A stretch of 64,000 bases of DNA from Methanomassiliicoccus sp. GTDB lineage: Archaea; Thermoplasmatota; Thermoplasmata; Methanomassiliicoccales; Methanomassiliicoccaceae. A model generated the notes under the pieces. The model did not search any database and was not told where the DNA came from. It saw only the letters and a program-made list of their open reading frames with translations. The stretch covers positions 434,001-498,000 of the forward strand of contig JAWQJJ010000002.1 of assembly GCA_033485155.1 (NCBI GenBank), written 5' to 3'. This document shows positions 32,377 through 59,349 of the stretch, piece after piece (within the stretch, counting starts at the first letter, position 1; every line of letters begins with the position of its first letter). The translations under genes and the position numbers were made by a program.

Positions 32377-32427
32377 ATTGTTGCACTTGGCCCAAAGAAG
32401 CCCAAGTCCAGTCGAGGCAGCGAACAA

Positions 32428-34032: not shown

Positions 34033-34098
34033 GTCCCACGGTATGCCTTTTCCATTAAAAATGACTATCTGGCTTTTTAAGATGCATGCATCTCATCC

Positions 34099-35658: not shown

Positions 35659-35667
35659 TTGACAGCC

Positions 35668-42680: not shown

Positions 42681-42856
42681 CTGCCCATGTAATGTGGGAA
42701 TCGGAGCCATAAATAGCCCGAGGTTGGGACCTGCACTCGAAATATTACCAATCCACGATCAGCTCATGTACTCACTAAGAGACTGCCTCGCTCCATCTGC
42801 CGATTTCTCCTCTGGTATTGTCTTATAGTAACACGAGTACGGGCGTAATTCTACCA

Positions 42857-44014
42857 TTAACCTGGATACTCCTTGGGTATGGTGAAGTAGGTTGCCGTTC
42901 CTTTTTCCGCCACCGAGACGATCTTCATTATGCCACCATGCCTTTCTACGACCCTCTTGCTTATAATCAGCTTGATGCCAGCACCAGGGTGTTCCTTGGC
43001 AGCGACTCCGGCGAACATACTATTAAAGTCGCCACTAACCAGGTCTTGCAGTGACTCTGGTGTCCCTGTGCCGTTGTCCTTTACGGAGAATGCCCATACC
43101 TTTGGGTCTTCGCGAGTAGAAACACGGATCTGCAGAGGCCCTTTCCCTCTGAACCTTATTGCCGTATCGATCAAGTTGCGAAGCAGAAGCGTTATCTGCG
43201 ACCTGTCACCGATTATCGTCGGCAGGGGATCATGGGTCACCGCGGCCCCTGTTCGATCGATAAGTGACCTAAGCTCATCAAGTGCAGTGAGGAGGGCCTC
43301 CTCCACGCTAAACCGCTCGAACGGCCGTCCTTCCACGACGACCCTGGAGAAGCCGAAGAGGTCATCAATGATCCCTCGCATCGTTGTAGCACTCTCCTGA
43401 GCGATGTTGTAACCCTCCGTGGATTTAGCTGGTGGCCGCTGGGCGAGGTCTGACTTAAAAAGCTGGAGTTGCTCCAACACCGAGTCCAGAAGATGGCTGA
43501 GGTCGTTGGCGGCCACGTATGTGAACTGCTCGACGTCGGTGCTTGATCTGCTCAAGCCGAACTTAATCGCTTTCTGCTCCTCCACCAGCATCTTCCGTTC
43601 AATGGCGTAGCGGATGGAGCGGACTAACACCTCACCATTTATGGTTTCCTTGAACAAGTAATCCTGAGCGCCATAACGAATTGCCTTCAGGGCTAAGTCC
43701 TTGTCCTGGTTTTCAGTCAGAACGATGATGGGGATTGTGGCCGAGTAGTCGCGGACGACCTCAAAAGTATCGTAACCATGACTATACGGCAGGTAAAGAT
43801 CCATGATAATGATATCGGCCCCTTGGTTGATGAGAGAAAGGCCCATGTCTAGATCAGTGGCGATTTTTACTGAAATATTCTCTCCGGAGAGCATCCGCTT
43901 GATCGAATCCATGTCCTCGTCGCTCTGGTCGATGAGCAATAGTGTCAATGATTCCGGCTCGCGCCAAGCCGCGATTGTATCCTCAATTGGGGCCGATTGC
44001 CCAGTACGCCTCAT
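42857..44014 (-). CDS. Receiver domain fused to a degenerate histidine kinase
   Basis: A 385-residue protein. Residues 22-140 form a receiver with the acidic pocket, phospho-acceptor Asp72 (ADIIIMDLYLP), Thr100 (IIVLTEN) and Lys122 (YLFKE). A kinase core follows, but the H-box reads YVAANDLSHLLD: Asn170 stands where the PAS kinase at 40438 has its His (YIASHDLQEPLR). The N-box reads LLRNLIDTAIRFR with Thr for the second Asn, and the G1 box is DNGTGTPES. G2 is GAGIKLIISKRVVERHGG. It is therefore probably a pseudokinase that reads out receiver phosphorylation, perhaps with the kinase at 40438 as partner. That pairing is inference from proximity. Confidence 0.8.
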   Translation of the reverse strand: MRRTGQSAPIEDTIAAWREPESLTLLLIDQSDEDMDSIKRMLSGENISVKIATDLDMGLSLINQGADIIIMDLYLPYSHGYDTFEVVRDYSATIPIIVLTENQDKDLALKAIRYGAQDYLFKETINGEVLVRSIRYAIERKMLVEEQKAIKFGLSRSSTDVEQFTYVAANDLSHLLDSVLEQLQLFKSDLAQRPPAKSTEGYNIAQESATTMRGIIDDLFGFSRVVVEGRPFERFSVEEALLTALDELRSLIDRTGAAVTHDPLPTIIGDRSQITLLLRNLIDTAIRFRGKGPLQIRVSTREDPKVWAFSVKDNGTGTPESLQDLVSGDFNSMFAGVAAKEHPGAGIKLIISKRVVERHGGIMKIVSVAEKGTATYFTIPKEYPG

Positions 44015-44522
44015 GACAGCTCAGCCCGTCGTTTCAATAAGCTCGTGGGACGTCCCTTGGGATCATCGATTCGTTCCTGAGTTGCCCACAGGTTGGGTAC
44101 AATCCTCGCCAGTTTTCTTTCGGACACTCACTTACCACCCCTTTTACGACGGAAGACTTCCCAGTGCCACCTGGCACATGACATATACTAGTTCACTCGA
44201 CCCAGTATTTAGCCATGCCCCGCTCAGATACTGAAAATATGTGCCGAAAGGGGTCTCAGAGTTGTCATGTGATGACCATATCCCGAGCGGCTCTTCAAGA
44301 CCATTGTAGGGAGCCCTTGCTCTTTAGTTAAAAGGAACCTCAGTATGAGACATGAGGAATCCAGAACGATCGCCTAACGCGGAACCCTTGGGAGAACATT
44401 GTTGGATAGAACTGATGAATATATTACCGTGCTAACTTGAATATTGAATCTGATTACTCGGAGGACGGCGGCCCCCTATAACCTTAGAGTTCCTCTGCTT
44501 CCGCAGAGAAAAGTCGTCTCTT
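44015..44522. other. Intergenic region, 508 bp
   Basis: No gene or RNA recognised. Scattered short frames on both strands lack ribosome sites and protein-like composition. Confidence 0.5.
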
Positions 44523-44784
44523 CTAGAGAGAATATCCATACTTCCGTCTTGATGAGTATGCCCCCGGCAACCTAAGAAACTGCTCAGCATCCTGTTTGGT
44601 CACGTTGGCCACGCTCCTCACCTTCTTCCCATTCCGCAGAAGAACATAGGGAATGCCTGGCAAGGGACATATATAGATACCATTGATAGCCAGGGTGCCA
44701 GCCTTGTCCAGTACGCGTAACGCCTCCTGAACCAACCGGCCAGTAGGAGCGAAGATTTTTGCCGCCTCAATCTTCTCAGGAGAC
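44523..44784 (-). pseudogene. Fragment of a zinc-dependent alcohol dehydrogenase
   Basis: About 85 codons in one frame encode an inner C-terminal piece of an MDR dehydrogenase: AAKIFAPTGRLVQEALRVLD, KAGTLAINGIYICPLPGIPY, KVRSVANVTKQDAEQFLRL. The catalytic domain is missing, the frame is closed by TAG upstream, and the true C terminus is replaced by SSRRKYGYSL. It is a broken remnant, with the only in-frame start inside the domain (GTG 44735). Confidence 0.7.
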
Positions 44785-44964
44785 TATTGATTAACCGGAT
44801 CGAGAAAGCCAGCGGCTCCCTGACTCTCCCTCAGACCTCGGTCCCCAGCATTGCGTCGACGACCAGATCATGCTCTTTAAGGCACCTTTCCAGGATGTCT
44901 AGCTCTGTTGTGTCGGCCGAGCCATCATCGCCGGACATGAGGATAACGTCCTTGGATGCAATTT
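44785..44964 (-). pseudogene. Fragment resembling NAD(P)H-hydrate epimerase (Nnr)
   Basis: The minus-strand frame reads KDVILMSGDDGSADTTELDI, LERCLKEHDLVVDAMLGTEV, then TGA, and continues as GRVREPLAFSIRLINSL. The pattern DLVVDAMLGTxxxGxVREPL with AIxLIN is that of the Nnr N-terminal (YjeF_N) domain, here with a stop in the glycine loop and both ends missing. It directly abuts the ADH fragment. The call rests on a short match. Confidence 0.5.
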
Positions 44965-45222
44965 ATAAGGATCTGAGACCTCTTGGGCAGCCTGTCAGGG
45001 TCGTCCTCATAAGACCATATAATGGTTCGGTCTACACGAAGAAAGACTGGTCATTATACGTAACATAGAATTAATCACTGGAGAGAGCGATGAAATCACA
45101 TAAGGCACCAGCATCTAATTCGATTCGGCGATCCCGCTCGTAGCTCACCGGTAAGATTTTTAACACTGTTAAAGTTGGACAAGCCTTATCGTTGCGGGTC
45201 CTGTGAGTAGGCCGTGAACAAA

Positions 45223-45495
45223 ATGGAGACAACCGCATCTATTCACAAGGACGCATGGATCAAGGATGTAGACAGCAAGCTGAGCGGAGCATCATACCCG
45301 ATGGACCGCAGCGTTGCCGAGCAGAAGCTCAAGGGCTTGAACATCGACGGCGACGACGCCACCAAGTTCTTCGGCAACATGGCGTGGCCGGCGAGCAGCC
45401 ACGATGATCTCGTGGACAAGTTGCAGCGGGCAAAGACGGGCGGAGCGGCGCCGGAGCACAACCCGGCTAAGAACACGCCTACGCGGACTGTTTAA
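45223..45495 (+). CDS. Small hypothetical protein, 90 residues (faintly DUF2795-like)
   Basis: A hydrophilic protein beginning METTASIHKDAWIKDVDSKL. The middle, GASYPMDRSVAEQKLKGL and MAWPASSHDDLVDKLQRA, faintly resembles the repeated YPxxxxEl/xxPxSxxdlv pattern of DUF2795. The C terminus is a low-complexity tail. A TATA-like GATTTTTAACAC lies near 45155. The GTG at 45214 is an alternative start, three codons longer. Confidence 0.6.
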   Translation: METTASIHKDAWIKDVDSKLSGASYPMDRSVAEQKLKGLNIDGDDATKFFGNMAWPASSHDDLVDKLQRAKTGGAAPEHNPAKNTPTRTV

Positions 45496-45924
45496 TACGT
45501 TCAAAGCTTTAGAAAACCAAACCCTTTCTTATTTTTTTTACTCGACGACCAGCCTAGATAATGTATCGATAAGGTTCTCGACGAAGCGATCTGATGTGTA
45601 CTCTTCGGATCCGATATTGTTTACATCTAATCCCCATAGCCAGATAATCGAAATGCTGCCCGTTCCAATAGCTTAGTTGACCAACTTAATACCGGTGTAT
45701 TAGCTGAGGCTTTGTCAAAATGATCATGGGGGGAAGAAGGACATGAGAATGATGTTTTGTTAGGTCACTGCATCAACTTGCATCAGAGAGGGCGCCCGAT
45801 TAATCAGTTGATGCATATAGAATTCGAGCGGTCGGAAAATCTAATGGTGAGGGGCCATACTACCGATCCAGGGAACTCGCTTATTAATATCTCCTTCTTC
45901 TCTTCATATATGGGAGGTGGACGT
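45496..45924. other. Intergenic region, 429 bp
   Basis: No gene recognised. The last part holds the ribosome site GGGAGGTGG (45912-45920) of the next gene and AT-rich sequence that could be its promoter. Confidence 0.5.
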
Positions 45925-46182
45925 TTGACTAAGAAGAGGCGTATGAAACCAGAGAATGATCCCGAAAAATTTTCCGATGCCGAGGACAAGGAGCCAGATG
46001 ATATCTATAATGAAGAGGCCAGGCAGGAACTGCTCGAGGACGATGAGATCACCGCCACGGAGGAGGGGTTCATGCGTGGCTGGGACGGTACGGTGGAGGG
46101 CGGAAAGAAGGAGAAGAAGGCCGACGACCATCGGGACAGCGTATCGGTCGATTTGGTCAAGGAACAGTACAAAGAGGATTAG
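45925..46182 (+). CDS. Small acidic hypothetical protein, 85 residues
   Basis: The TTG at 45925 is chosen because a strong ribosome site, GGGAGGTGG, precedes it by a few bases. The protein has a basic start (TKKRRMKPEN), then a strongly acidic body (DAEDKEPDDIYNEEARQELL) and the segment DDEITATEEGFMRGWDG. The last resembles a short motif seen in small archaeal proteins of unknown function. No membrane segment. Probably soluble. Confidence 0.65.
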   Translation: MTKKRRMKPENDPEKFSDAEDKEPDDIYNEEARQELLEDDEITATEEGFMRGWDGTVEGGKKEKKADDHRDSVSVDLVKEQYKED

Positions 46183-46425
46183 CCGCTGAAATGATAGATA
46201 ACCTCTCAGTAAAAGAGGAAGCAAGGAGGGGAGGCTCCGTATTCAGACTATCCAAGATGCTCAGAAAAGCTGGAAAATTACGCTGTTCCTCACCGCCCCT
46301 GGACGCACCTATCTGGCCTGGCCAGATGTTTGATTTTTCATAATCCTCGAGATTGGCATGGCTTCGACGATATCCAAATACGGGGAGCCGCCGATATCTT
46401 CTCACGATGCTTATAATGAATGGGG

Positions 46426-46716
46426 TTACTCTTCAATCTTCATTAATCCGGGCAGCTCGGAACAATACATAGTGACAAATTCGTTCCATAGTTCGACCGA
46501 ACGGTCATTATATTTCTTTGCGAGCTCAAAATCACAGTCGAAATCTCCCGAATCGTCCAAGATAACTACATGATCGTGTCTCCAACTATTGACCAGGAGA
46601 TTTGTAATAAATGCAGAGAAGGGATAGCGAACCGGATCCTCACCATCAACCGGTATAAGTCCTGGCCGAACGTACTCTTTTCGTGTATGGTTATAAATCC
46701 CATATATTACTCCCAT
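46426..46716 (-). CDS. Hypothetical protein, 96 residues
   Basis: The protein begins MGVIYGIYNHTRKEYVRPGL and continues with YPFSAFITNLLVNSWRHDHV, ILDDSGDFDCDFELAKKY and a helical, aromatic C terminus (VELWNEFVTMYCSELPGL). Composition and uniform frame usage look coding. No family recognised, no membrane segment. It lies alone in an AT-rich part of the element. Confidence 0.6.
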   Translation of the reverse strand: MGVIYGIYNHTRKEYVRPGLIPVDGEDPVRYPFSAFITNLLVNSWRHDHVVILDDSGDFDCDFELAKKYNDRSVELWNEFVTMYCSELPGLMKIEE

Positions 46717-47434
46717 GTTCCGATCACTCCAATATTGCTCGTTGAAACGATATCAATGGAAATAGAAGATGTCTGAGATGGGTGATGCCCGCATTGTATT
46801 AGTGATAGCCTCATGTATTTAACCGTCCCTGAAACCCCTATCTCTCCTGGTTAGAATCAACTTTCCTAAATCACTTAACCGAACATTGAAACATTCGATA
46901 TAATAAAAAATAAACATAAATGAACAGTCGTCGTCTAAGGTATCATGGGTAATTTGTAAAAGGAAGTTTTTCATTCGCTTTTATTGTATACTTACCCCGC
47001 ATCCAGGGCGATAGGTCTCGAACACCACTCCATAATGGTTGTGGCGAACCATATTCTCTGGGCCGCGAGCCGGACAGAAGTCCTTCTTGATCACGTCGCA
47101 TTGCCTTTTCATAGATTACTGGAGAAAACCTATTATCATCGTTTGCGGGGGGAGGGCGCTGATAATACCTAGCTAATGATTGCCTCTTGAAATATGGGAT
47201 GGACTGAAGGGGATCTTAATCCACAGAACCTACTGTCCAACCTCTAGAAAATACCGCCCCAGACATAAATCAATTGTTCGAGACTATGGGGGATGAGTAA
47301 CTTATTCTAAATCCCATTCTCATTGTAAAACGATTATTGAGGGAAACGCTAAATCTACAAAGAGGTACGAGCCTTGAGGCTAGATGAAGTAACTTTGGGT
47401 TTATATGAGGATGATGACCGGACGGTCCAGTCGA
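46717..47434. other. Mostly non-coding AT-rich stretch, 718 bp
   Basis: The only coding-like item is a 43-codon minus-strand frame at 46981-47112 (MKRQCDVIKKDFCPARGPEN; MVRHNHYGVVFETYRPGCGV), which has three Cys but no ribosome site or recognised family and may be a remnant. Otherwise nothing is seen. Confidence 0.4.
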
Positions 47435-47767
47435 TCAGGTCTTTTTTATTTCGTATATCTTGATGACACCCTTTATGGCGGCCAGATTGGTGTTGAGCTG
47501 CATCACGTCCGAAGCGCCCATTGCATATGAGGAGGGCATGCTCACCAATACGGTGCTGAACATGTGTTTCTTGAGGTTCAACTCTTCCAGGACGTCCTTG
47601 TTCACTTCGATTACCAATTGAGGTATAGTCCATGCCACTGGGTCGACCAAGATCCCCTTTAGCGTCCCCATCAACCTTCCATCATTAGTATAGACCTCCT
47701 TCGTAACCGAGTGTTCCCAGAATATCAGATCCATGGGTTTAGTAGTGGCCGTTGTGGTTTCTTGCAT
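47435..47767 (-). CDS. PRC-barrel domain protein
   Basis: A 110-residue protein. After a short leader (MQETTTATTKPMDLIFWEHS) come the PRC-barrel strands KEVYTNDGRLMGTLKGILVD, WTIPQLVIEVNKDVLEELNL and FSTVLVSMPSSYAMGASDVM, ending in IKGVIKIYEIKKT. PRC barrels act in RNA processing, cell division (CdpB-like in archaea) or as adaptors. The exact role here is unknown; it is soluble and unpaired. Confidence 0.72.
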   Translation of the reverse strand: MQETTTATTKPMDLIFWEHSVTKEVYTNDGRLMGTLKGILVDPVAWTIPQLVIEVNKDVLEELNLKKHMFSTVLVSMPSSYAMGASDVMQLNTNLAAIKGVIKIYEIKKT

Positions 47768-48325
47768 CTTTCTACCCTGAGGTAATATTTGATGCCGGTC
47801 GACCTATAATGCTTTCGTTACCTGACCCCAGGACGATATCAAGGCTAGTATCCTCTGATCAACCATCTAAGGGCCGGAGAAAAATTCAGTAACATGAAAA
47901 GAACCTGCAGATTAACGATTAATGACGGCTAAACAACCAGCTTTGAACCAACCTAAATCGCCTCGAATACCTAAACAACGATAAGTTCGGTATCCAAAGT
48001 GCGACCCCTATGCTGACCCATGAGATGTCGCACCGAGCGTACCGAAGAGGATACAATACGGGCTATGCGCCTCGTCGCGCCCTCTGGTATTTTATAGAAA
48101 TGTTGATACAAATCTCCCTTGAGATAGATTTCATTTTTTGACCTCATTCCCCCCATCACTGAGGGAATAGTGTCCTCATGTCGCTGCAGTTCCAGGCCTC
48201 GTCATTCCCGCACTGGATCCTTACTTCCATAAACAGTTACTTAAGGGGCGTGCCATAGTATATTATTAAACGGAATCGAAAAGGAGATGTAGGCATAACA
48301 TCCTTTTCGGGGAGCCTCGAATTCG
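47768..48325. other. Intergenic region with one doubtful small frame
   Basis: A minus-strand frame at 47971-48147 (MRSKNEIYLKGDLYQHFYKI, then GATRRIARIVSSSVRSVRHL) has purine-rich GGGGGGAATGAGG before its ATG and may be a real 58-residue gene. A plus-strand TATA-like TATTATTAAACGG at 48260-48272 and AAAGGAGATG precede the fusion ATPase at 48326. Confidence 0.4.
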
Positions 48326-50860
48326 ATGGAGAATTTTAAAATCGTAGTCGCCGGGGATGTGATAATCGATTGGTTACAGTGGGTGACGTACCCCAACGAT
48401 AGAATTAAGGATGGAGATAATCAAAACTGGGCTTTATTTCCGTGTACTCGAATGAAAGCTGAACAAGGAGGGGCCCTCCTTCTTGCCCGGATGGTAGGGG
48501 CAGCGACTTCGGTTGAGGTCATAACCCATGAAATAACGGAAATAGAGAACATTTCCCCGGAAACGATCATCCATTCGATCTCCATTCTCGATTCCTTCCC
48601 GTGGAAGAAGGGTAAGAAGGCATTGGTCTTTAGAATTAGGCATCTGGGCGGCTATTACGGGCCACGAAAAGGCACACCGAAATCTTTGTTGATCGCTCAT
48701 GATGATGCTGAGGCCGAATTAATCGTACTGGACGATGCTGGGTACGGATTCCGCGAAGAAAGAAACGCATGGCCGCAGGCTATCCTAAATAATGATAAAA
48801 AGTCCATAATAGTCCTAAAAATGAGCCGACCATTGGCATCTGGCGCATTGTGGGATCATCTGGTCAAGGAACGATCCAATGAATTGATAGTCGTCATCGA
48901 TGCGAACGATCTCAGGGAGATGGGTGTCAACATCAGTAGGCGCCTGTCCTGGGAGCAGACGGCCGAAGACTTTTGCTGGCAGATCCTAAACAATCCAAGA
49001 ATCCGGCCCCTTGCAGGAAGCAGGAACCTCATAGTGAGATTTGGGCTGGATGGGGCTATCCACTACTCAAAAAACGGCGACAATATCAAAGCAGTGCTAT
49101 ATTACGATTCCCAGACAAGCGAAGATGGGTATAGAGAACAGCATCCTGGAGAGATGAAGGGAAAGATGGCAGCCTTTGTGGCGGCACTCACATCGGAAAT
49201 ATTTGCTCAAGGAATCCGGGGAATCGATATCGGGATAAAGGAAGGTATTCTAAGGTCTAGGCAGCTCCACAGGCTGGGGTTCGGTGATGCGGATGAGGAG
49301 CCCGCCCGTCCATTATCAATGCTCTCAGATTCAATGAACGACGCGGAGACGATCTTTAGTATTCCCATCCCGATAATTGTAGAAAATGCGTTTAGTGGGG
49401 GAGGCAACTGGCGGATCCTCGAAGAGTGCACCCGTGGTAAGCTTGAGACCATTGCATATAACGCTGTGATAAGGCCCCCTGAAGACTCCATGAGGGAAGT
49501 ACCACAGGCCAGGTTTGGGGCCTTGTACACTCTCGATAGAAGCGAGATCGAAAGTTATCAGAGTATCAATAACTTGATGACTGAGTATCTTAAGATAAAG
49601 GATGTCAAAGCACCTTTGTCTATAGCGGTATTCGGACCGCCGGGCTCAGGGAAGTCCTTTGGAGTGGCTCAACTAGCAAAAAGTATCGACCCTGACTTGG
49701 TTGTTATCCGGGAGTTCAATGTCGCCCAATTCACCTCTATCGATGACCTAACGGATGCATTCCATAAGGTCAGGGATTTGGTCCTTGAGGGAAAGGTACC
49801 TCTAGTGTTCTTTGACGAGTTTGATGTCTTCTATAATGGTGAACTGGGATGGCTAAAGTATTTCCTTGCCCCCATGCAGGACGGTGCTTTCAAAGAAGGC
49901 GAGACAACACACCCTATTGGAAAATCGATATTTGTCTTCGCTGGTGGCACGAGCGACAGCTTTCAGCAGTTCTTTAAGGAGCATACTGGAGGTGAACAAA
50001 GTGTAAATATGCCCATGATGAAAAGATTCAGGGATGCCAAGGGAACAGATTTCGTCAGCCGACTTCGCGGTTACGTCAATGTCATGGGCCCCAACCGCAC
50101 TGGTGATGATGATGAGTTCTTCATCATCAGGCGAGCCCTACTTCTACGTTCTCTGCTCATAAGAAAAGCACCGCAGATATTCGATGGTCAGGGGAATGCG
50201 CGGGTCGATCCCGCGATACTTCGTGGATTTCTCAAAGTGCCATCATATAAGCATGGGTCGAGATCGATGGAGGCGATCATTGAGATGAGCACGCTTTCCG
50301 GGAAGATGAGGTTCGAGCAAGCTTCCCTGCCTCCGGCCAAGCAACTTGAACTCCATGTCGACTCAGAGATGTTCTCTAAGCTAGTTCTTCGCGACGTTCT
50401 CCTCGGCGACGCCATGGAACGTCTGGCGAGGGGAATCTATGAGCAAAATCATCTTGATAGGGAGGATAAAAAGTATCCCGACGACGCACCTCTTCAGTCT
50501 TGGGAAAACTTGGATGAGTACAGTAAAGAATTGATACGGAAGCAAGCGCAACAGATCCCTGAGCAATTACGAAGAATCGGTCTGGATTTCATGCCTTTCT
50601 TCGAGAAACCGAGCACGTCGTTCGTCCTATCCGCTGAGGAGGTGGAAATCCTAGCCGAAATGAAGCATAAGCAACAGGTCAAAGAACGTTCGCAAGAAGG
50701 ATGGGCCCCTCGCGTATTGGGGGATCCAGAAAGGAAGGTCACTTTTCTCATCCCGTGGTCTCAGCTCCCTGAAGAGGTGAAGGAACGGGATAGGGAAGCA
50801 GTTAGAAGAATACCAGAGCTGTTAAAAATGTCAGGATTTGAAGTCTATAAGTTGCAGTAA
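48326..50860 (+). CDS. Ribokinase-like / AAA+ ATPase / RyR-domain fusion protein
   Basis: An 844-residue protein. Residues 1-330 look like a PfkB/ribokinase fold (VVAGDVIIDWLQWV; VVIDANDLREMG; LIVRFGLDGAIHY; HPGEMKGKMAAFVAALTSE where kinases have the GAGD site, here altered). An AAA+ ATPase spans about 400-650: Walker A GPPGSGKS (437-444), Walker B PLVFFDEFD (492-500), sensor-like VFAGGTS and an arginine-rich FRDAKGTDFVSRLRGYV. Residues 724-844 form a RyR domain (SWENLDEYSKELIRKQAQQI; LIPWSQLPEEVKERDREAVR). RyR domains in prokaryotes have been proposed to bind nucleotide-derived ligands in conflict systems. A defence or stress-sensor ATPase is my inference. No obvious effector gene adjoins it. 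Confidence 0.8.
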   Translation: MENFKIVVAGDVIIDWLQWVTYPNDRIKDGDNQNWALFPCTRMKAEQGGALLLARMVGAATSVEVITHEITEIENISPETIIHSISILDSFPWKKGKKALVFRIRHLGGYYGPRKGTPKSLLIAHDDAEAELIVLDDAGYGFREERNAWPQAILNNDKKSIIVLKMSRPLASGALWDHLVKERSNELIVVIDANDLREMGVNISRRLSWEQTAEDFCWQILNNPRIRPLAGSRNLIVRFGLDGAIHYSKNGDNIKAVLYYDSQTSEDGYREQHPGEMKGKMAAFVAALTSEIFAQGIRGIDIGIKEGILRSRQLHRLGFGDADEEPARPLSMLSDSMNDAETIFSIPIPIIVENAFSGGGNWRILEECTRGKLETIAYNAVIRPPEDSMREVPQARFGALYTLDRSEIESYQSINNLMTEYLKIKDVKAPLSIAVFGPPGSGKSFGVAQLAKSIDPDLVVIREFNVAQFTSIDDLTDAFHKVRDLVLEGKVPLVFFDEFDVFYNGELGWLKYFLAPMQDGAFKEGETTHPIGKSIFVFAGGTSDSFQQFFKEHTGGEQSVNMPMMKRFRDAKGTDFVSRLRGYVNVMGPNRTGDDDEFFIIRRALLLRSLLIRKAPQIFDGQGNARVDPAILRGFLKVPSYKHGSRSMEAIIEMSTLSGKMRFEQASLPPAKQLELHVDSEMFSKLVLRDVLLGDAMERLARGIYEQNHLDREDKKYPDDAPLQSWENLDEYSKELIRKQAQQIPEQLRRIGLDFMPFFEKPSTSFVLSAEEVEILAEMKHKQQVKERSQEGWAPRVLGDPERKVTFLIPWSQLPEEVKERDREAVRRIPELLKMSGFEVYKLQ

Positions 50861-51242
50861 CTGTTGAATGGATAAAATAATATCATTACTGCCACTCTCA
50901 TCGAGCATCTTAATACTCTTGTCGGTAAGCTAAAGGGAATGCTTGAGTCCATGAAGCGGGCAATATGGGTGTATTCGAGCGATATTATGCCATAATAAAA
51001 ACAATATTTAGATAATAATTGAAGAAGGTCTTCCGCATCAGTCTCCATACTGGATCGAATACCTTTATGATCGCAATATGGCCAAGAGACGGCCCACTAT
51101 CCATTTGATAGGAAATATCTGCATCCGATAGATATTTTAATAAGTTTGAAGCGTGAGGACAAAACATCATCGTTTTAGATGCCAATTAGATAGAGGTATC
51201 GTTCACGTCCACCATTCTCCTTTAAATAGGGACATTGCCGCA
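50861..51242. other. Intergenic region, 382 bp
   Basis: No firm gene. A TATA box, CCTTTAAATAGG, at 51217-51228 puts the transcription start about at ATG 51243. Short coding-like frames near 50880-50995 have no recognised family. Confidence 0.5.
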
Positions 51243-51503
51243 ATGAACATCGACCGGGAAAGTAATGTGGCTCAGATTCTGGTGAGCATACTGTCCTTCG
51301 GTCCGAGGGACTATGACACACCGGAGGAAGCGAACGAAGGCATTGATCTCTTGTCTAGGTACGCGGAGCTGTCGGATGATGGGGGCAAGTCCTTTGCTAA
51401 TACACCAGCCAAACTGAATTTGTTTACCGATGATGGATGGATAGCTACGATCCGCAAACAGAAGCCCAGAGAGCTGATAGGAATCGTCAAACGGAAATAT
51501 TGA
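51243..51503 (+). CDS. Small paralogue-family protein A, 86 residues
   Basis: The protein has the segments LSFGPRDYDTPEEANEGIDL, YAELSDDGGKSFANTPAKLN and RKQKPRELIGIVKRKY. It is clearly related to the next gene (51623) through R-D/E-YDTPE, xANTP and ELxGxV. The TATA box at 51217 suggests leaderless translation from ATG 51243. The pattern looks like a small alpha/beta domain. No named family is recognised. Confidence 0.65.
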   Translation: MNIDRESNVAQILVSILSFGPRDYDTPEEANEGIDLLSRYAELSDDGGKSFANTPAKLNLFTDDGWIATIRKQKPRELIGIVKRKY

Positions 51504-51622
51504 TCAGTTCGATGCCTGGCGGTGGAAGTGCCTCATAATCCGTCCCTCATGGCAATGGCTTGATACTCATGAATACTGAGAAATACAGTTGCACTCAACT
51601 TACTAACGTTAAGGTGGTTTAT

Positions 51623-51859
51623 ATGACCAAGATTCGGGTGAGCATGATGAACATCGGTTCAAGGGAGTATGATACTCCAGAGGATGCGAGTGATGGTATA
51701 AATTCCCTACTCAAAGGCACGGAACTGGTGGACGCTGCTGGTAAGGGCTATGCCAATACGCCAATGAATTTGAAGGTTCTTACTGATGGTGGGAAGGCAG
51801 TTACTCTTCGCTCCCCGAAGTCTAAAGAATTGTTGGGAACCGTTACACAGAAAGAGTGA
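51623..51859 (+). CDS. Small paralogue-family protein B, 78 residues
   Basis: MTKIRVSMMNIGSREYDTPE, GINSLLKGTELVDAAGKGYA, NTPMNLKVLTDGGKAVTLRS, ending KELLGTVTQKE. It is paralogous to the protein at 51243 and to the decayed copy at 51962. AAGGTGG precedes the ATG by a few bases, so this copy uses a ribosome site, unlike the first. Confidence 0.65.
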   Translation: MTKIRVSMMNIGSREYDTPEDASDGINSLLKGTELVDAAGKGYANTPMNLKVLTDGGKAVTLRSPKSKELLGTVTQKE

Positions 51860-51961
51860 TCGATTGAACGCTAGGTCGATGAATGGCCCCATAAATGATC
51901 CATACCCGACGATGGTCACCTCAGCAACATTTACAAACGTGGTCGTATTCGGCCATGCTTC

Positions 51962-52174
51962 ATGGAAAAGACAAGTTTTGCTCCATTCCGCCTCACCACA
52001 TTATCCCTCGGTTTGAGGGATTACGACTCGCCCGAGTAAGCTGATGATAGCATTGATTATATGCTCCCCGACGTTGAACTGGCTGATGGAAAGGATAACG
52101 CCTGAGATAACTTGGCTTCTGGCCTGAGCATCCCTGCCAGATAGGGGAATGAAGCCTCCATCCGCGAAAAATAA
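51962..52174 (+). pseudogene. Decayed third copy of the small paralogue family
   Basis: One continuous frame shows LSLGLRDYDSPE, stop, ADDSIDYMLPDVELADGKDN, stop, DNLASGLSIPAR, stop, GNEASIREK. The stops are TAA, TGA and TAG. Spacing of RDYDSPE, the ELADG block and the terminal basic block equals that in the copies at 51243 and 51623. Because three different stops are present, readthrough cannot rescue it. Confidence 0.7.
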
Positions 52175-53003
52175 TCCGTAGTAATTGTAGGAGTTATCTG
52201 TGAGAAGGACTGCCCGTTCAATCATTGCAGGGACCTGAGAAAAACTCCGGTTCGCTAAGCCTTCTATTATCATTATGTCAATAACAATTCCGCAGCATTC
52301 TTCAGAATGCTTATCATTCATGGCCGCAAGCTGTATCACATTGTCAGTTCAGCAATAATATGGCGTACTTTACCCTATACCAATCATTAGCTTCGCCTAA
52401 TAGATTTCCTTCCATTCAATCATCGGGTTGGCTGCCCCATCCTTTTTTAGAGATAGCGATAAATCTCTACCTCGCGGGCTTCTTGCCGTCATTTCCTTAT
52501 TGAGATGCCTATTAAGACTCCTAGATACTCCAGGGGAAGTTTGTGTCTCCTAGAGATCTGACCCGGGCTATTCCGATGTACAGCAGGAGCCCGATCAGCG
52601 TCACTAGCGCCCCCTCCCGCACCATGCGCTTTCCCAACCAATTTCGCCCCGGCGGACAATTTTTTTGATCGATCGACAATCGCCCTCCAATTTCAAGAAC
52701 TCTCTCGTTGCAGGTTTTATCAGGGGACATAGACGCGCCCCCTCAACTCAGTGGTTCAGCGAGGACCATTCACAGATGTGTTCTGGAACGTCGCCATTCC
52801 AAAAAATAGGACTATGGGCCTGGCCATGCAATACTACTAATGCGAATAGTAGCCAAATTGTGGTGACCGATCTATGACATGAAGAATTCCTTGGCAATTG
52901 GGGATCAAGGAATCACCCTCATCCACCTTGCATCAGAATATTAAGGAGTGGGTCCCCTACATATGCCCTGGATCGGTACCCATTTCCTATCACGAGAAGA
53001 CTG
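52175..53003. other. Mostly empty stretch, 829 bp
   Basis: No firm gene. A minus-strand frame at 52521-52625 (MVREGALVTLIGLLLYIGIA) encodes one hydrophobic segment of 34 residues and may be a remnant. The rest shows no coding signature or RNA. Confidence 0.45.
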
Positions 53004-53267
53004 TTAACCCACTATATTTCGGATGAAAAAGCAGCTAAGAGGTTTTACTTCCCTGCTCATTAGTGATATCTCTCCAGCGGCCGCTTGGCTGCTTTCTTCA
53101 TATTCTCCTCCTGCCCAACCTTGACCAACTCTCCCCCGAAGCCGCATAATAAAGTCCGATTTCGTAAGCTCTAAGATGAAATAGAACTGATTCAGCCGTT
53201 CAGCTTGCTTTGGACTTGCTTTGATGTTAAAGACGATAGCCCTTTCTTCCCTTATTTCAGCTATCAT
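53004..53267 (-). CDS. Small hypothetical protein, 87 residues, coupled to a membrane peptide
   Basis: The ATG at 53267 overlaps the stop of the upstream 38-codon frame (ATGA). The protein reads MIAEIREERAIVFNIKASPK, QAERLNQFYFILELTKSDFI, then a Gly/Ser-rich middle and EVKPLSCFFIRNIVG. The larger frame to 53456 is open, but the TATA box at about 53424 argues for starts downstream of it. No family recognised. Confidence 0.4.
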   Translation of the reverse strand: MIAEIREERAIVFNIKASPKQAERLNQFYFILELTKSDFIMRLRGRVGQGWAGGEYEESSQAAAGEISLMSREVKPLSCFFIRNIVG

Positions 53268-53380
53268 GTCAACCGCCTCCTTAGTCTCAGCCTCTCGGCG
53301 ATGATAACCGTGAGCGATATGGCGATCATCAAAGTAACGGTAAACAATAAGGAGAACCAAACGTACTCCCAAATGTTCAC
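53264..53380 (-). CDS. 38-residue single-pass membrane peptide
   Basis: Starting at GTG 53380 the frame encodes VNIWEYVWFSLLFTVTLMIA then ISLTVIIAERLRLRRRLT: one transmembrane helix followed by a strongly basic cytosolic tail, a positive-inside small membrane protein. A TATA box, GTTTATAAAG, at about 53424-53433 on the minus strand would start transcription 20-25 bp before the GTG. Its stop overlaps the ATG of the next frame. Confidence 0.45.
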   Translation of the reverse strand: MNIWEYVWFSLLFTVTLMIAISLTVIIAERLRLRRRLT

Positions 53381-53465
53381 GGCTTTTGAATCCTCTTGCC
53401 CACTCTCGTTCCTGATGTTTTTCTTTATAAACTAACCAAACCCTACCTTTGCCCACCTAAGATAT

Positions 53466-53753
53466 CTACGTCGGCTTTGTTGATGCTTGTTGATTCTTAA
53501 GCGCTTCCCTCTCTTGGCAATACTCACGAAACGAGCTATCGAGCCGAGTCTCAGGTACATGGTCCAAGATTGCGTACACCAAATCCCTGAACCTGCGGTC
53601 AGGTTTGTTCATATGTACTTTCATCACGTAACCATTGAAGCTCCTAATCGATACTTGTGCATAGCCATTGTTAATTGCGAAGCTCACTTTACTGACGTAG
53701 TCCCAATTGATGCGGACCAATCGATGGGGGCCCCTGGATGCACAGATAGTCAT
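53466..53753 (-). CDS. Small hypothetical protein, 95 residues
   Basis: MTICASRGPHRLVRINWDYV, SKVSFAINNGYAQVSIRSFN, GYVMKVHMNKPDRRFRDLVY, AILDHVPETRLDSSFREYCQ and a polar tail. The alternation of strands and a final helix suggests a PH-like small domain, but that is only a pattern judgement. The GTG at 53774 would add seven residues. No family recognised. Confidence 0.5.
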   Translation of the reverse strand: MTICASRGPHRLVRINWDYVSKVSFAINNGYAQVSIRSFNGYVMKVHMNKPDRRFRDLVYAILDHVPETRLDSSFREYCQEREALKNQQASTKPT

Positions 53754-53889
53754 TGCGCCACGGTCGGTCCACACTCCAAGGCAGGCCCCAGTGGTTCAAA
53801 ACAACTTTACTCTCCTAGCAGAGCAATAAAGACATCCACTATTATGATAAATATAAGTGTACCGAGGAGAAATGTTATCTGGAGATAGA

Positions 53890-54177
53890 ATGACGGACAA
53901 CAGCGAACAAAGGGACTACTGCATGAGCGTGATGACATACACCCAAGACTGGGACACTTGGAAGGCGACGCTCAAGGAGGCGATATTGGCCGGTAAGAGC
54001 CTCGGTCTGTCGGACGGAGAGATAAAGGACATCGCCACCCGCTTCGCCGATTTCCTCGCCGATAGAGTGTGCGCGGAAACGACGGAGGAGGCGTTGGTCA
54101 AGGATATGTGGGACGTCGCCGATGTGGACGAGCGCAAGGCTATAGTCAGCATATTCTTCAAGATGCTGTCAGAGTAG
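53890..54177 (+). CDS. DUF3243-like protein, 95 residues
   Basis: The sequence TQDWDTWKATLKEAILAGKS, LGLSDGEIKDIATRFADFLA, DRVCAETTEEALVKDMWDVA and DVDERKAIVSIFFKMLSE follows the DUF3243 pattern (DWDxWxxxL, LGxSxexI, GDxLAxxVdpxxxEErLLkeLWdvaDeeErk). The family is mainly from Firmicutes and its role is unknown. TATA-like GATAAATATAAG at 53845 and GGAG at 53881 precede the ATG. A gene from the bacterial world on this element fits transfer. Confidence 0.65.
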   Translation: MTDNSEQRDYCMSVMTYTQDWDTWKATLKEAILAGKSLGLSDGEIKDIATRFADFLADRVCAETTEEALVKDMWDVADVDERKAIVSIFFKMLSE

Positions 54178-54343
54178 GTGGGAGCGGGGATCTGCTCCTT
54201 CACCAAGTTGGATGGAGGCGCAATGCGAGGCTCGCACACCCATGGGAAATCGATCCCATGCAAAATCTAGTATGGGATTAGGGAGCGGGCTATCGGTCCT
54301 GGATGGTGGGGGTTCGGGAAGTGCGACCAGTGGAGGTTGATAG

Positions 54344-54640
54344 ATGGGCATGATGGAGTGGTTCGGTAAACAGATGATCAAGAGAATGAGTCCCCAGGAG
54401 CGATTTGATCTCACCGAGATGGCCGTCATGGAGATTATCGCTTCCATGACCTCGGATGAGAAAAAGGACCTCATGGTCCGTCTTATACCTAGGGTGTCAA
54501 AGACCATGCTGGACGGCATGACGCCAGAGGACCGCAGGAAGGTGGTCGAAGGGGTGGCGCCCGCTCTCCTCGCCCAGATGTCATCCTCGGGAGCGCTCAC
54601 GGGCATCGTGGAATTGATGCGCAACAAGAAGAAAGATTGA
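54344..54640 (+). CDS. Small helical hypothetical protein, 98 residues
   Basis: A Met-rich helical protein: MGMMEWFGKQMIKRMSPQER, MAVMEIIASMTSDEKKDLMV, MLDGMTPEDRRKVVEGVAPA, LLAQMSSSGALTGIVELMRN. The ribosome site GGAGGTTG is eight bases before the ATG. Three similar helix-turn units (MSPQER, MTSDEKKDL, MTPEDRRKV) suggest an internal repeat. No family recognised. It follows DUF3243 on the same strand with a 166-bp gap. Confidence 0.65.
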   Translation: MGMMEWFGKQMIKRMSPQERFDLTEMAVMEIIASMTSDEKKDLMVRLIPRVSKTMLDGMTPEDRRKVVEGVAPALLAQMSSSGALTGIVELMRNKKKD

Positions 54641-54709
54641 GCAATCTGACCTTCAACCAACAAATCTAATTATCTTTAAGCGCCGTCTTATTGCCTTGGA
54701 GGAATGGTC

Positions 54710-55063
54710 ATGCCTCATGTCGTTCTTACTGGTGTTGTTGCACTTGAGGACATCTTCCAAGAACTGAAACCGTTGCTCATCAAGAATGACAAAGACATCC
54801 TGAGGACCATGGACGTTTACCTTGGTCGAGGCAACAACTCCATTCTCATCGAATCGCTGGCCATCGAGGGCGGTCGGAAGGCCACCTTTCTAACCTTAAT
54901 AACGTCCAGGGATGATGGCATAGTAGTCAGGCTATACCCAAAATTCGAGGTAGAGAAGACTGAGGGAGTCAAGAGGATCCTTGCGGAACAGGCTAAGCAG
55001 CTGCTCTGGACCTTTCCTGGACTCAAGGTGGGAGAGACCAACCTGGCCCAATACCTTGGATAG
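54710..55063 (+). CDS. Conserved-looking hypothetical protein, 117 residues
   Basis: MPHVVLTGVVALEDIFQELK, ILRTMDVYLGRGNNSILIES, GRKATFLTLITSRDDGIVVR, then KFEVEKTEGVKRILAEQAKQ and a terminal LGWTFP-like LLWTFPGLKVGETNLAQYLG. ATG 54710 gives a good spacing (7 bases) from GGAGG, whereas ATG 54704 is too close. A TATA-like AATTATCTTTAAG lies at 54667-54679. No family recognised; likely soluble. Confidence 0.6.
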   Translation: MPHVVLTGVVALEDIFQELKPLLIKNDKDILRTMDVYLGRGNNSILIESLAIEGGRKATFLTLITSRDDGIVVRLYPKFEVEKTEGVKRILAEQAKQLLWTFPGLKVGETNLAQYLG

Positions 55064-55222
55064 GTCGTGGGTTTACTGCGTTCGCAGGCGTGCTCTGTGG
55101 ACACTGAATCAGGCATGTTATATGTCCGGTTCGTCCCATTGGGCCGAATTAACTCAGGTGATAGATGAAGAAAGAAAGATTATGCGGATGGTTCCATCCG
55201 CATGGTTCGGTTTCTGCCTCAC

Positions 55223-55735
55223 TTAGCAGGCCGGCGGCATCAACACGGTGTCGATGACGTGGATTACCCCGTTGCTCGCCTGGATGTCGGTGATGATCAC
55301 CTTGGCGTCGTTGATGTACACGTCGCTGCCGATGATGTGCACCGTGACCGTTCCACCCTGCAGGGTAACGATCTGTTGGCAGTCCTCAAGGTCACCCGCC
55401 ATCACCTCTCCTGATGCAACGTGGTACAGCAGGATCTGCTTGAGCGTGGCCACGTCGGTGGTCGTCAGCTTTTGCAGAAGAGCAGGGTCCAGCTTAGCGA
55501 AGGCCTCGTTGGTCGGGGCGAACACGGTGAACGGTCCGGTGCCGTTCAAAGCATCGACCAGCCCAGCGGCATTCAGAGCGGTAACCAGAGTGCTGAGGTC
55601 ACTATTCTCCTCTGCTGTCTGAGCGATGGTGTTACTGGGTGCAGTGGTGGTTTGTGCCGCTGTTCCCGCGTAACCGGCCAAAACGCAGAGGACCACTGCC
55701 ATACTGGCTATGGCGATTAGCATTCCTTTCTTCAT
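55223..55735 (-). CDS. Secreted fasciclin-domain protein
   Basis: A 170-residue protein with a signal peptide (MKKGMLIAIASMAVVLCVLA, cleavage likely after GYAGTAAQ), a Thr-rich linker and one complete fasciclin (FAS1) domain: LSTLVTALNAAGLVDALNGT, the H1 motif GPFTVFAPTNEAFAKLD, LKQILLYHVASGEVMAGDL and the H2 motif ASNGVIHVIDTVLMPP. FAS1 domains mediate adhesion at the cell surface. A strong ribosome site, GCAGGAGGACTT, precedes the ATG. Divergent from the second fasciclin gene at 56031. Confidence 0.9.
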   Translation of the reverse strand: MKKGMLIAIASMAVVLCVLAGYAGTAAQTTTAPSNTIAQTAEENSDLSTLVTALNAAGLVDALNGTGPFTVFAPTNEAFAKLDPALLQKLTTTDVATLKQILLYHVASGEVMAGDLEDCQQIVTLQGGTVTVHIIGSDVYINDAKVIITDIQASNGVIHVIDTVLMPPAC

Positions 55736-56030
55736 AAGTCCTCCTGCATTATCTTTGTTGAGAATTATGATTTCAATTTTAGATATTAGTTTATTGCGCG
55801 ATAATGGAACGGGAAATTTGGCAAAAGGTCGAACTGAGGATATCGACCATTAATATGGCAATAATCAAACCCATGTTGTGATGCGGCCCATTATCTAAAT
55901 TGATCTCTCGATTGTAATTGGGTGTGAAGAATCCTGCCGCAATGGCCAATGGTGTCTAGCATGAGTTGATGAAAAATCTATTAATATCGGTTGTAAAAAC
56001 TATTCTTATAACAGATAATGGGATGATAAT

Positions 56031-56447
56031 ATGCCGGACATCGTTGAGTTGGCCATGCAGGCAGGGAATTTTAAGACACTCGTCGCTGCAGTACAGGCCG
56101 CTGGGCTCGTTGATACTTTGAAGGGGGCTGGACCGTACACAGTATTCGCTCCGACTGACGAGGCGTTCGCCAAGCTGCCCGCGGGCACGGTGGAGAGTTT
56201 GTTGAAGGATGTTCCCAAGTTGAAAAATATCTTACTGTACCACGTGGTCCCGGGCAAGGTCATGGCAGCGGACGTGGTCAAGCTAAAGACCGCCAAGACG
56301 GTCCAGGGGGAGGAAGTCAAGATCGATGCGGCACGATGGCATCTGCACCGCCATGTGAAGGTGAACGATGCCAACATCATCCAGGCCGATATTGTCGCTA
56401 GCAATGGGGTCTGCCACGCCATCGACAAAGTATTAATGCCGAAGTAG
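56031..56447 (+). CDS. Fasciclin-domain protein without signal peptide
   Basis: A 138-residue protein that is one FAS1 domain: [77 protein letters not shown]. It lacks any signal sequence, so it should stay in the cytosol. The segment before H2 is odd ([15 protein letters not shown] has extra basic residues where others read GxVxVNxA). It is a paralogue of 55223 and stands 109 bp before the heliorhodopsin gene on the same strand. Confidence 0.88.
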
Positions 56448-56556
56448 GCAGATTCCTTTTTTTACATTTTCCAATTGTATATTAGCAATAGCTCATGATA
56501 GATTATTACTGAGGATATAAATTAAATAATCAAGGGTTCAATCGATTACCGATACT

Positions 56557-57327
56557 ATGGTTCCGGAGACCGACCCCAAGTTCGTCGCCTTGAGAAAGTG
56601 GAACGCCGCACTACTGGTCCTTCATCTGGTCCAAGGGCTGGCGATACTAGCTTTAGCGACCAGCTTCGCCCTGCCGGTGACAGCTTCCTTCCTTCATTTT
56701 AACTCGGCCACCGGTCAGCTAGAGGCTCAAATCAGCACTCTGTTCACCCTGCCTATCGCTCCTCTCATCGCTCTGTTCCTGTTCACCTCGGCCTTCGACC
56801 ACTTCCTGCTGGCTGGGCCGTTCTACCAGTGGTACGTTGACGGACTGAAGGCCCATATCAACAAGGCCCGGTGGTTCGAGTACGCGTTCTCCTCGTCCAT
56901 CATGATAGTGGTCATCGCCATGCTCGTGGGCATCTATGATGTCGTCTCCCTCATCGCGCTGTTCAGCATCAATGCCTGCATGAACCTCTTCGGCCTGGTC
57001 ATGGAGCAGATCAACCAGAACCGCCCGAAGGTCACCTGGACCCCGTACATCTTCGGTACCTTCGCCGGCCTTATTCCATGGGTCGGCATCGCTATATATC
57101 TGGCTGGAGCAGGACAGTACGGCAACGTCCCCAGCTTCGTGTACTGGATCTTCCTGACCATCGCCATCACCTTCTTCTCCTTCGCCTTTAACATGATACT
57201 GCAGTACCGTGCGAAAGGCCGGTGGGCCGACTACCTCTTCGGGGAGAAGGTGTACATGATCCTCAGCCTGGTCGCGAAGACCTTACTCGCATGGCAGGTG
57301 TTCGCCGGGACGCTTAGGCCGATGTAA
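56557..57327 (+). CDS. Heliorhodopsin
   Basis: A 256-residue seven-helix protein. Lys241 in SLVAKTLLAWQVFAG takes the retinal Schiff-base place, with Ser237 one turn before it; these numbers equal those of the heliorhodopsin 48C12 type as I recall. Glu108 in ARWFEYAFSSSIMIVVI is the expected counterion, and His23 (VLHLVQ) and His82 (FDHFL) are also at family positions. The large A-B loop (LHFNSATGQLEAQISTL) is typical. Heliorhodopsins are inverted in the membrane and are thought to be light sensors or enzyme-regulating partners. TATA box GATATAAATTA is at 56514-56524. No carotenoid or retinal genes are visible in the window. Confidence 0.95.
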   Translation: MVPETDPKFVALRKWNAALLVLHLVQGLAILALATSFALPVTASFLHFNSATGQLEAQISTLFTLPIAPLIALFLFTSAFDHFLLAGPFYQWYVDGLKAHINKARWFEYAFSSSIMIVVIAMLVGIYDVVSLIALFSINACMNLFGLVMEQINQNRPKVTWTPYIFGTFAGLIPWVGIAIYLAGAGQYGNVPSFVYWIFLTIAITFFSFAFNMILQYRAKGRWADYLFGEKVYMILSLVAKTLLAWQVFAGTLRPM

Positions 57328-57346
57328 GAAAACGGTACGGGATACG

Positions 57347-57568
57347 ATGGACCTCCAAGGAAGGGTCTGCATCATCACCGGAGCCAATTCCGGCATAGGC
57401 AGGGAGACCGCTCTCGCCCTTGCCGCCCTGAAAGCCAGGGTGGTAATGACGGTCCGCGATTCGAAGAAAGGAGCGAGGGCCAGGAAGGAGATCGTCGACC
57501 GGACCGGGAACGATTCGGTCGAGGTCATGATCTGTGACCTTTCCTCATTAGATTCCATAATAGGGTGA
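57347..57568 (+). pseudogene. 5' fragment of a short-chain dehydrogenase
   Basis: The frame has the NAD(P) motif ITGANSGIGRETALALAALK, then VRDSKKGARARKEIVDRTGN and VMICDLSSLDSI, and ends at a TGA after 73 codons. Normal family members have about 250-300 residues including the YxxxK catalytic pair, missing here. It begins 20 bp after the heliorhodopsin stop, so it was probably co-transcribed with it. The following sequence has no SDR similarity by eye. Confidence 0.8.
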
Positions 57569-58221
57569 GTATAGCCATACATAATGTACAAATGCGCATC
57601 TTCCTCGAAGGAATTGTACCATTCTGCACCTACCTACTCGCATCACTTCACCAGACTAGATCATACGACATTCTCATCGAAAACTTAGCCCACAATCGAC
57701 ATGATGGTAAATTGCCACCTTTTTTCCGAATCATCCGTTCCAGATGAAAAACAAGATCATGTGCCACAATCATGCCATGATAGTCAGCACAGAAGATGAT
57801 GAACAAGAACTAAGTGCATAAGATTCCAGATTTTATTTCGATAAACATGTCGAAGTTCAGCATTGTGAAAAGTTGGGTATATAATACTTTGCTTAAAATC
57901 GAGATTTTTCAGATCACATTTGAAATCACCCACCATTTGAAAAATGTCCAAATCAATGGGCAACCTATCTTCCATACATTTTTTCGAAACATGTTGCGAC
58001 GCCTTATAGGAGTCACTCAAAGGTAAAATTCTTGTTTTTTCGGCTGCCGTCGATTGATCATCCTAGCTCGATCTCATCATCTCGGGAGATGAGATTCTTC
58101 ACCCGCTCATTGCAAGAACATTTCACCGCCCACGACCCTTCGGACGGCTCCCACTATGCCCCGCCTAGAGAAAACACACGGACGGGTCGAGTCCTCACTC
58201 GAGCAAAAGATGGAAAGAGAT
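57569..58221. other. AT-rich non-coding stretch, 653 bp
   Basis: No gene can be supported. Overlapping frames at 57784-58026 on both strands have low-complexity AT-rich composition. A perfect 8-bp inverted repeat, ATCTCATC and GATGAGAT, lies at about 58069-58093. Confidence 0.45.
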
Positions 58222-59100
58222 TTAGAACCGGGGAACACCCCTGTTGTATGCTTGCTTCCGTGCCGGATTATTGCAATGAAGATAGATTTCCGTCGTCGAT
58301 ATATCCGCGTGTCCCAGCAAGTCCCGAAGCGAGATGATATCCGTCCCGTTCTGCGTGCAATGGGTAGCGAAGGAGTGCCGTAGCACGTGCGGTTTTATCT
58401 TGACCGCGAATCCGGCTTGCTGCCCCACTTTCTTTATTTCTTCCTCCACGGCATGCCGAGATATCCTTTGCTTCCTCTCGGATAAGAACAAAGGGTGGTC
58501 GGGCTTGACGTTGATTATATTGTACTTCACGCGGTAGGTGTTGAGGATTTGTACGAGCTGGTCATCCATATCGACCTCCCTATCCCTATCACCCTTCCCC
58601 GAGCGAACCCTAATCACCCGGTTATCGGTATCAATATCCCCAATATTGAGGTTGCAAAGTTCGGCAAGCCGAAGTCCCGTCTTCATGAACAGGGTGACTA
58701 TAGCTAGTTGGCGGTAGGTCCGGCACCCATCGATGAGCTTTTTCATTTCCTCTATCGGTAGATAACTGGGCATCTTCCGCGTTTGCCTGGGCTTCTTGAT
58801 GGGCTGGATGCCCTGGATGCCCTTGAACTCGATGAACAGCTCCAAGGCTTGGAGCAAGTGCCGTTGGTGCGAAGAAGAATATCCCGAGGTGCGGACCTTG
58901 GCGAGAAGACGGTTTACTTCCGTTTGATTGATGGTATAGACCGCGTTCTTACGGAACAGGGCCTTGAGATTCATGGCGTTATTGTACGCTTGTTTTACTC
59001 CTTGAACCTTGACGCCAAGGAGCCATAGTCGAAAGTCCTCAAATTCCTGAAACCTTGTATCTTGTGCCATAATTCGCGCAATTTCTTCTTTTTCTATCAT
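58222..59100 (-). CDS. Tyrosine recombinase (integrase of the element)
   Basis: About 292 residues from ATG 59100 (MIEKEEIARIMAQDTRFQEF). The N-terminal core-binding domain is followed by the catalytic domain: Arg in MKTGLRLAELCNLNIGDI, Lys region RVRSGKGDRDREVDMD, HxxR in KPHVLRHSFATHCTQNG, LGHADIST, and nucleophile Tyr in TEIYLHCNN. It resembles archaeal XerA/XerC-type proteins. The open frame reaches 59241, but its first 47 residues come from the (AT)n tract and are unlikely to be translated. It lies just inside the right attachment repeat, so it should catalyse integration into and excision from tRNA-Leu. Confidence 0.9.
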   Translation of the reverse strand: MIEKEEIARIMAQDTRFQEFEDFRLWLLGVKVQGVKQAYNNAMNLKALFRKNAVYTINQTEVNRLLAKVRTSGYSSSHQRHLLQALELFIEFKGIQGIQPIKKPRQTRKMPSYLPIEEMKKLIDGCRTYRQLAIVTLFMKTGLRLAELCNLNIGDIDTDNRVIRVRSGKGDRDREVDMDDQLVQILNTYRVKYNIINVKPDHPLFLSERKQRISRHAVEEEIKKVGQQAGFAVKIKPHVLRHSFATHCTQNGTDIISLRDLLGHADISTTEIYLHCNNPARKQAYNRGVPRF

Positions 59101-59179
59101 ACCAGATACACTCCCGGATGCGAGTCTGGAAGCGAGGGTATCTTGTCCATCGTTCCCCGAAATTCGAATTATATTCGCT

Positions 59180-59216
<37 letters not shown>

Positions 59217-59249
59217 GAGCTAATATTATCAATGCCAGCAAGTTAAAAG

Positions 59250-59316
59250 TGTAAGGGAAAAGTGGTGCAGGGGATGCGATTTGAACACACGAACCACTAA
59301 GGACAAGACCCTCAAT
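59250..59316 (-). repeat. Right attachment repeat, within tRNA-Leu
   Basis: Identical over 67 bp to 39895-39961. In tRNA orientation it starts in the anticodon stem-loop and runs through the variable arm, T arm and acceptor stem past the CCA, into 13 bp of flank. Confidence 0.93.
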
Positions 59317-59349
59317 CTTGCGCCGTTGGCCAAGCTTGGCTACCCCTGC
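59263..59349 (-). tRNA. tRNA-Leu(GAG), CCA encoded
   Basis: On the minus strand the gene begins GCAGGGG and ends CCCCTGC plus ACCA; the seven acceptor pairs are perfect. The anticodon stem CAAGA/TCTTG closes the loop TTGAGGG with anticodon GAG (plus 59311-59313). The long variable arm and the T loop GTTCAAATC are typical of a class II leucine tRNA. The 3' half coincides with the attachment site of the element, so integration restored an intact gene. Confidence 0.94.

Follow-up and report, generated by a model that had tools for sequence, protein, structure and literature searches.

An intact heliorhodopsin (HeR) gene is carried as cargo by a tRNA-targeted, site-specific integrative element in a methanogen of the order Methanomassiliicoccales. 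The element gene belongs to a known family but sits in a surprising host and setting. The stretch of DNA analyzed, hereafter the window, comprises 64,000 nucleotides (G000:C2:434001-498000) of a 2.8-Mb genome that is 99.96% complete, with an estimated contamination of 3% (G000, the host). The host is a methanogen, as had been presumed from the window: mcrA lies on the window's own 516-kb contig (C2:390571-390951), and the order name comes from the named relatives in the genome scan, which are Methanomassiliicoccus and Methanomassiliicoccales metagenome-assembled genomes (MAGs).

The Element Gene Encodes an Intact Heliorhodopsin

Is the gene a genuine member of the family? Its reading frame is intact, and the Pfam profile PF18761 is matched end to end (319 bits, E 1.7e-95), while the NCBIfam HeR equivalog NF038020 scores 312 bits, about three times its cut-off of 100. 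Helix 7 holds the SxxxK motif as S237 and the Schiff-base lysine K241; H23, H82, and E108 complete the key residues. A comparison of 41 HeRs from the order shows no variation at S237, K241, E108, or H82, and H23 is likewise constant in the 40 of them with sequence at that position. The original prediction of an intact HeR with Lys241, Ser237, Glu108, and the family histidines is thereby upheld.

The nearest solved structure is that of TaHeR (Thermoplasmatales archaeon SG8-52-1; PDB 6is6, 7clj, and 7u55; phmmer E 1.6e-72 for 6is6), in which the glutamate E108 is the counterion and H23 and H82 are the histidines of the Schiff-base cavity (PMC9385722). TaHeR and the element protein share family and fold, are ~50% identical (51% in the Foldseek alignment), and correspond at H23, H82, E108, Q26, and the Schiff-base lysine. 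The AlphaFold2 model of the element protein, of moderate confidence (mean pLDDT 74), aligns with 6is6 at a TM score of 0.86-0.88; Foldseek matched it to HeR structures at E 1e-19 to 1e-15 and to type-1 rhodopsins at ~1e-4; 48C12 and TaHeR thus fit the predicted model far better than any type-1 rhodopsin does. From family membership, the N terminus is assumed to be cytoplasmic (the inverted topology). TaHeR belongs to another Thermoplasmatota lineage and, unlike the element gene, was not found reported as mobile cargo or as encoded by a methanogen. A TATA-like stretch upstream of the start codon is a candidate promoter (Table 1).

Table 1. Coordinates of the element, its ends, and its genes (positions within the window)
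Feature	Position	Strand	Details
Integrated element, ~19.4 kb	39962..59316		att repeats; this tRNA locus is empty in G018, G019, G020, G021
Left att repeat	39873..39961		exact core 39895-39961; duplicates part of the 3' half of tRNA-Leu
Right att repeat	59228..59316		89 bp at 95.5%; exact core 59250-59316
tRNA-Leu(GAG), intact, integration target	59263..59349	-	3' half covered by the exact repeat
Tyrosine recombinase (XerA-like integrase)	58222..59241	-	PF00589 137 bits; NF040815 215.8 bits, cut-off 220
PAS-containing sensor histidine kinase	40438..42156	+	domain scan
Response-regulator/HATPase hybrid	42857..44014	-	domain scan
AAA + RyR domain protein, 844 aa, element-specific	48326..50860	+	domain scan
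Second fasciclin-domain protein	55223..55735	-	PF02469 136 bits; N-terminal hydrophobic stretch in translation
Fasciclin-domain protein	56031..56447	+	upstream of HeR; PF02469 141 bits; only the tail left in UBA345
Block: fasciclin tail, HeR, SDR start	56378..57559	+	collinear with UBA345, 79% DNA identity
TATA-like element, archaeal, atataaatta	56514..56523	+	upstream of HeR ATG; conserved in UBA345 upstream region
Heliorhodopsin (HeR)	56557..57327	+	256 aa, complete; PF18761, NF038020, PDB 6is6, fold match
Truncated SDR oxidoreductase, 73 codons	57347..57568	+	UBA345 counterpart 286 aa; 66.7% aa identity over 69 residues

The Gene Is Cargo of an Element Integrated at tRNA-Leu

The XerA-like integrase, whose catalytic residues appear intact, adjoins tRNA-Leu(GAG) on the same strand, and an exact direct repeat of 67 bp covers the 3' half of this tRNA. 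Because the repeat marks both ends, the extent of the element can be set at ~19.4 kb. Four congeners (G018, G019, G020, and G021) lack it at the same tRNA locus; they have the PNPOx gene on one side of tRNA-Leu, as in the host, and on the other, where the contig reaches, they have the genes of window ~22.5-25.6 kb within ~3-4 kb. The att repeat, the integrase beside the tRNA, and the four empty sites bear out the integrated element that had been proposed, and the kinase, hybrid kinase, two fasciclins, and SDR fragment listed as its companions were all found. The difference from the congeners is larger than the element, and tRNA-Leu looks like an insertion hotspot because the block at 25.6-39.9 kb is likewise absent or different where their contigs reach. 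This block (window 25600-39900) encodes an alkyl sulfatase, a CLC channel, Na/H exchangers, TrkH, and an EamA exporter, in a gene order not found at this tRNA in the congeners; it is likely an older insertion.

Besides the kinases, the AAA/RyR protein, the fasciclins, HeR, and the SDR fragment, the cargo consists of small ORFs, and no transfer or replication genes were recognized among the main element ORFs scanned. Two of the small ORFs are tandem paralogs (window 51153-51859), and a small acidic protein (45757-46182) is 43% identical to one (L058:6737-7015) that sits beside HeR in the fen genomes G126 and G127. The fasciclin protein on the reverse strand is apparently of the secreted type. 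The AAA/RyR protein has weak similarity to IetA in PADLOC and may have a defense or phage-related role. A search for the same element in related genomes, suggested at the outset as a check, gave no sign that it recurs as a whole: across the order, its AAA/RyR protein has a single good homolog, in G001, which is 50% identical and contains an internal stop.

A Horizontally Related Copy in Addition to a Native One

The host has a second, chromosomal HeR (C3:266485), lying between a major facilitator (MFS) transporter gene and a gene for an EF-Tu-domain protein. This neighborhood is common, wholly or largely, to G020, G014, and G011, and looks ancestral for the family. How do the two copies relate to those of other genomes? 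The element HeR is 61% identical to the native HeR of the same genome, 77-79% to those of three fen/family-f6 genomes, and 89% to that of Methanomassiliicoccus sp. UBA345 (DATD01000035), which belongs to a different genus from the host (McrA 90% identity). Native HeRs of the host and its congener G020 are 82% identical despite 97% identity in McrA; those of the host and G014, which belongs to the same genus as UBA345, are 64% identical, and ordinary orthologs around the native locus in the latter pair stand at ~58-80%. Because the element copy is closer to that of another genus (89%) than native copies of congeners are to each other (82%), these comparisons support its horizontal spread. A quick maximum-likelihood tree, the phylogeny suggested as a check, groups the element HeR with UBA345 and then with the three fen sequences (SH-aLRT 99 at both nodes).

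The likeness to UBA345 takes in the neighboring genes, as the block of fasciclin tail, HeR, and SDR start is collinear between the two. In UBA345 a complete SDR (286 aa) begins 16 nt past HeR, and the fasciclin is truncated near an integrase-like fragment upstream (a weak match, below cut-off); the host element is the reverse, with a complete fasciclin and a cut SDR. The two loci appear to be what is left of a single transferable cassette. No nearby tRNA was found in UBA345—one suspected from ORF translations was not recovered by ARAGORN—and no other element gene was recognized around its HeR. Synonymous divergence between the two HeRs is high (pS 0.52); the transfer is therefore not recent. 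Their dN/dS of 0.076 spans the history of both lineages, the ratio between the related genomes G109 and G110 is 0.09, and pN against UBA345 is 0.064 for HeR vs. 0.232 for the SDR fragment. The ratios show purifying selection on HeR along the compared lineages, which would be no proof of selection on the window copy itself.

A viral source of the element HeR was rejected, the two viral-contig HeRs being too distant (only 47-49% identical). Plasmid HeRs from Chloroflexota (CP069395.1) and Lactococcus petauri (NZ_CP141705.1) are on mobile DNA, as here, but these are bacterial plasmids with HeRs of ~48% identity rather than a tRNA-integrated archaeal element.

Heliorhodopsins, Partners, and Retinal Supply in the Order

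Of the 147 genomes of the order, 38 have an HeR that scores above cut-off; in one of these (G003) it has internal stops. At least two further mcrA-bearing archaea outside the main set carry it, a Methanomicrobia MAG (SPRUCE) and a fen archaeon. Together with the second chromosomal copy, these counts speak against reading the element gene as an isolated oddity. The two peat/fen archaea with both HeR and mcrA (L152 and L109) form a second methanogen lineage with HeR. The gene is also carried by RumEn M2 (LJKL01000015.1, L159), a methanogen from an enrichment of cow rumen, where it is dark, and one to which the pair G109/G110 is related; tandem HeR pairs occur in G137 and G145 (L068, L072). Thermoplasmatota HeRs, HeR-SDR and HeR-photolyase operons, and HeRs on plasmids are already known, and HeRs near kinases have been described (PMC8612252). 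A literature search that mostly lay outside subscription journals found no account of HeR in Methanomassiliicoccales or in an integrated archaeal element; little attention has been paid to how widely methanogens have HeR or to its presence on a mobile element.

Ten HeR operon groups have been described, among them one with an SDR and one with a photolyase (PMC11109279), and TfHeR interacts with a photolyase (PMC9769723). The UBA345 locus is like the former group, with its SDR directly downstream of HeR. Several family-f6 loci (L060, L065, L066, L068, L069, and L072) are like the latter, in that HeR and a photolyase-like gene of cluster c16 lie no more than 8 kb apart, an association conserved across family f6. 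Unlike both groups, the host has a broken SDR, and a search of its genome gave no photolyase match. At the species level, with relatedness uncontrolled, HeR is present in 22 of the 28 genomes that have a photolyase (p 5e-11); by genus, photolyase occurs in 10 of 15 genera with HeR vs. none of 15 others (p 2e-4). SDRs near HeR in family f5 were considered as counterparts and set aside as a different SDR group (~33-37% identity), as was a retinol-dehydrogenase role for the SDR, which the profiles place in a general oxidoreductase group near PRK06197, below cut-off.

Where might retinal come from? With a retinal producer defined by phytoene synthase (PSY) plus a beta-carotene 15,15'-dioxygenase of the Blh/BCD or RPE65 type, a genome-wide profile search detected neither in the host, extending to the whole genome the earlier remark that the window has no retinal-synthesis gene. 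Across all 147 genomes of the order, the host included, no BCD (Blh) match rose above cut-off and no RPE65-type enzyme was found. Ten relatives gave weak BCD (Blh) matches, the highest at 26.6 bits against a cut-off of 28, and these were dismissed as retinal enzymes; the four loci inspected encode membrane proteins whose operon also includes a secretion/archaellum-type ATPase. PSY occurs in 11 genomes of the order, 10 of them HeR-positive, an association that was not retained since it is nonsignificant by genus (p 0.10). Because PSY, Blh/BCD, and RPE65-type genes are undetected in the host, the protein probably depends on scavenged retinal, as stated for other rhodopsin carriers (PMC9296517), or else functions with no pigment. 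A retinal-making enzyme of an unfamiliar kind is also possible. HeR is used by microorganisms without retinal synthesis, and its retinal uptake is rapid (PMC9296517).

What Might the Element Heliorhodopsin Do?

We consider it reasonably probable that the protein is a retinal-scavenging photosensor, carried as accessory cargo of the element in a host that also has a native HeR. The apoprotein would obtain its retinal externally, a route proposed for other carriers that lack the pathway, and would act as a slow, non-pumping photosensor that modulates a soluble partner or a signaling pathway. That partner may have been the adjacent SDR oxidoreductase in the parent cassette and may be the photolyase in relatives; because the SDR is truncated in the host, the element HeR would need another partner there or would add to the dosage of the native sensor. 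Invariant Schiff-base residues, low dN/dS, and co-occurrence with photolyase favor a retinal-binding, light-related role. Against a photosensor stand the lack of a detectable photolyase, a characterized HeR partner, in the host genome, the presence of HeR in RumEn M2 from the dark rumen, and the ~14 kb that separate the element kinase from HeR, with nothing to suggest that they form an operon. The original prediction had offered mobile light sensing or a light-independent role: carriage on an integrated element stands, horizontal spread is supported, and sequence cannot separate the two roles.

A light- and retinal-independent protein that regulates a soluble enzyme at the membrane or serves as its scaffold, and that keeps the retinal-site residues for folding or for another ligand, would accord with an anaerobic host, with a genome in which no retinal-synthesis gene was detected, and with the constraint on HeR between G109 and G110. 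We judge it unlikely, as the invariance of K241, S237, and E108 in 41 of 41 HeRs of the order is hard to explain without a Schiff base, and photolyase is confined to genera that hold HeR. It also seems improbable that the gene is a passive passenger with no function in this strain, acquired as a second copy and now decaying: its place at the element edge beside the integrase, the reduction of the downstream SDR to 73 codons with its higher pN, and the presence of the native copy would all suit such a fate, but the HeR frame is intact, every key residue is kept, and UBA345 shares the TATA-like stretch upstream. Finally, contamination or a chimera that placed a foreign contig in a methanogen bin, raised from the outset as what could undo the finding, is very unlikely despite the 3% contamination estimate, because mcrA shares the 516-kb contig with the element HeR; both flanks moreover match congeners, the att repeats account for the junctions, and the nearest HeRs all belong to the host's own order.

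Implications

HeR is widespread, duplicated, and exchanged among these oxygen-sensitive methane producers, and its pigment is apparently not made by known routes. One tentative and rather doubtful generalization is that strictly anaerobic methanogens, including a rumen lineage, keep HeR under strong selection and spread it on mobile elements, although none of the 147 genomes searched yielded a known retinal-cleaving enzyme, because scavenged retinal serves as a warning of light or exposure or because the protein has a lightless role. HeR in this order offers a clean test system for HeR function. If wetland methanogens do sense light via scavenged retinal, light would be a possible input to methane-producing communities; otherwise, a function that needs no light would be a novel proposal for the HeR family.
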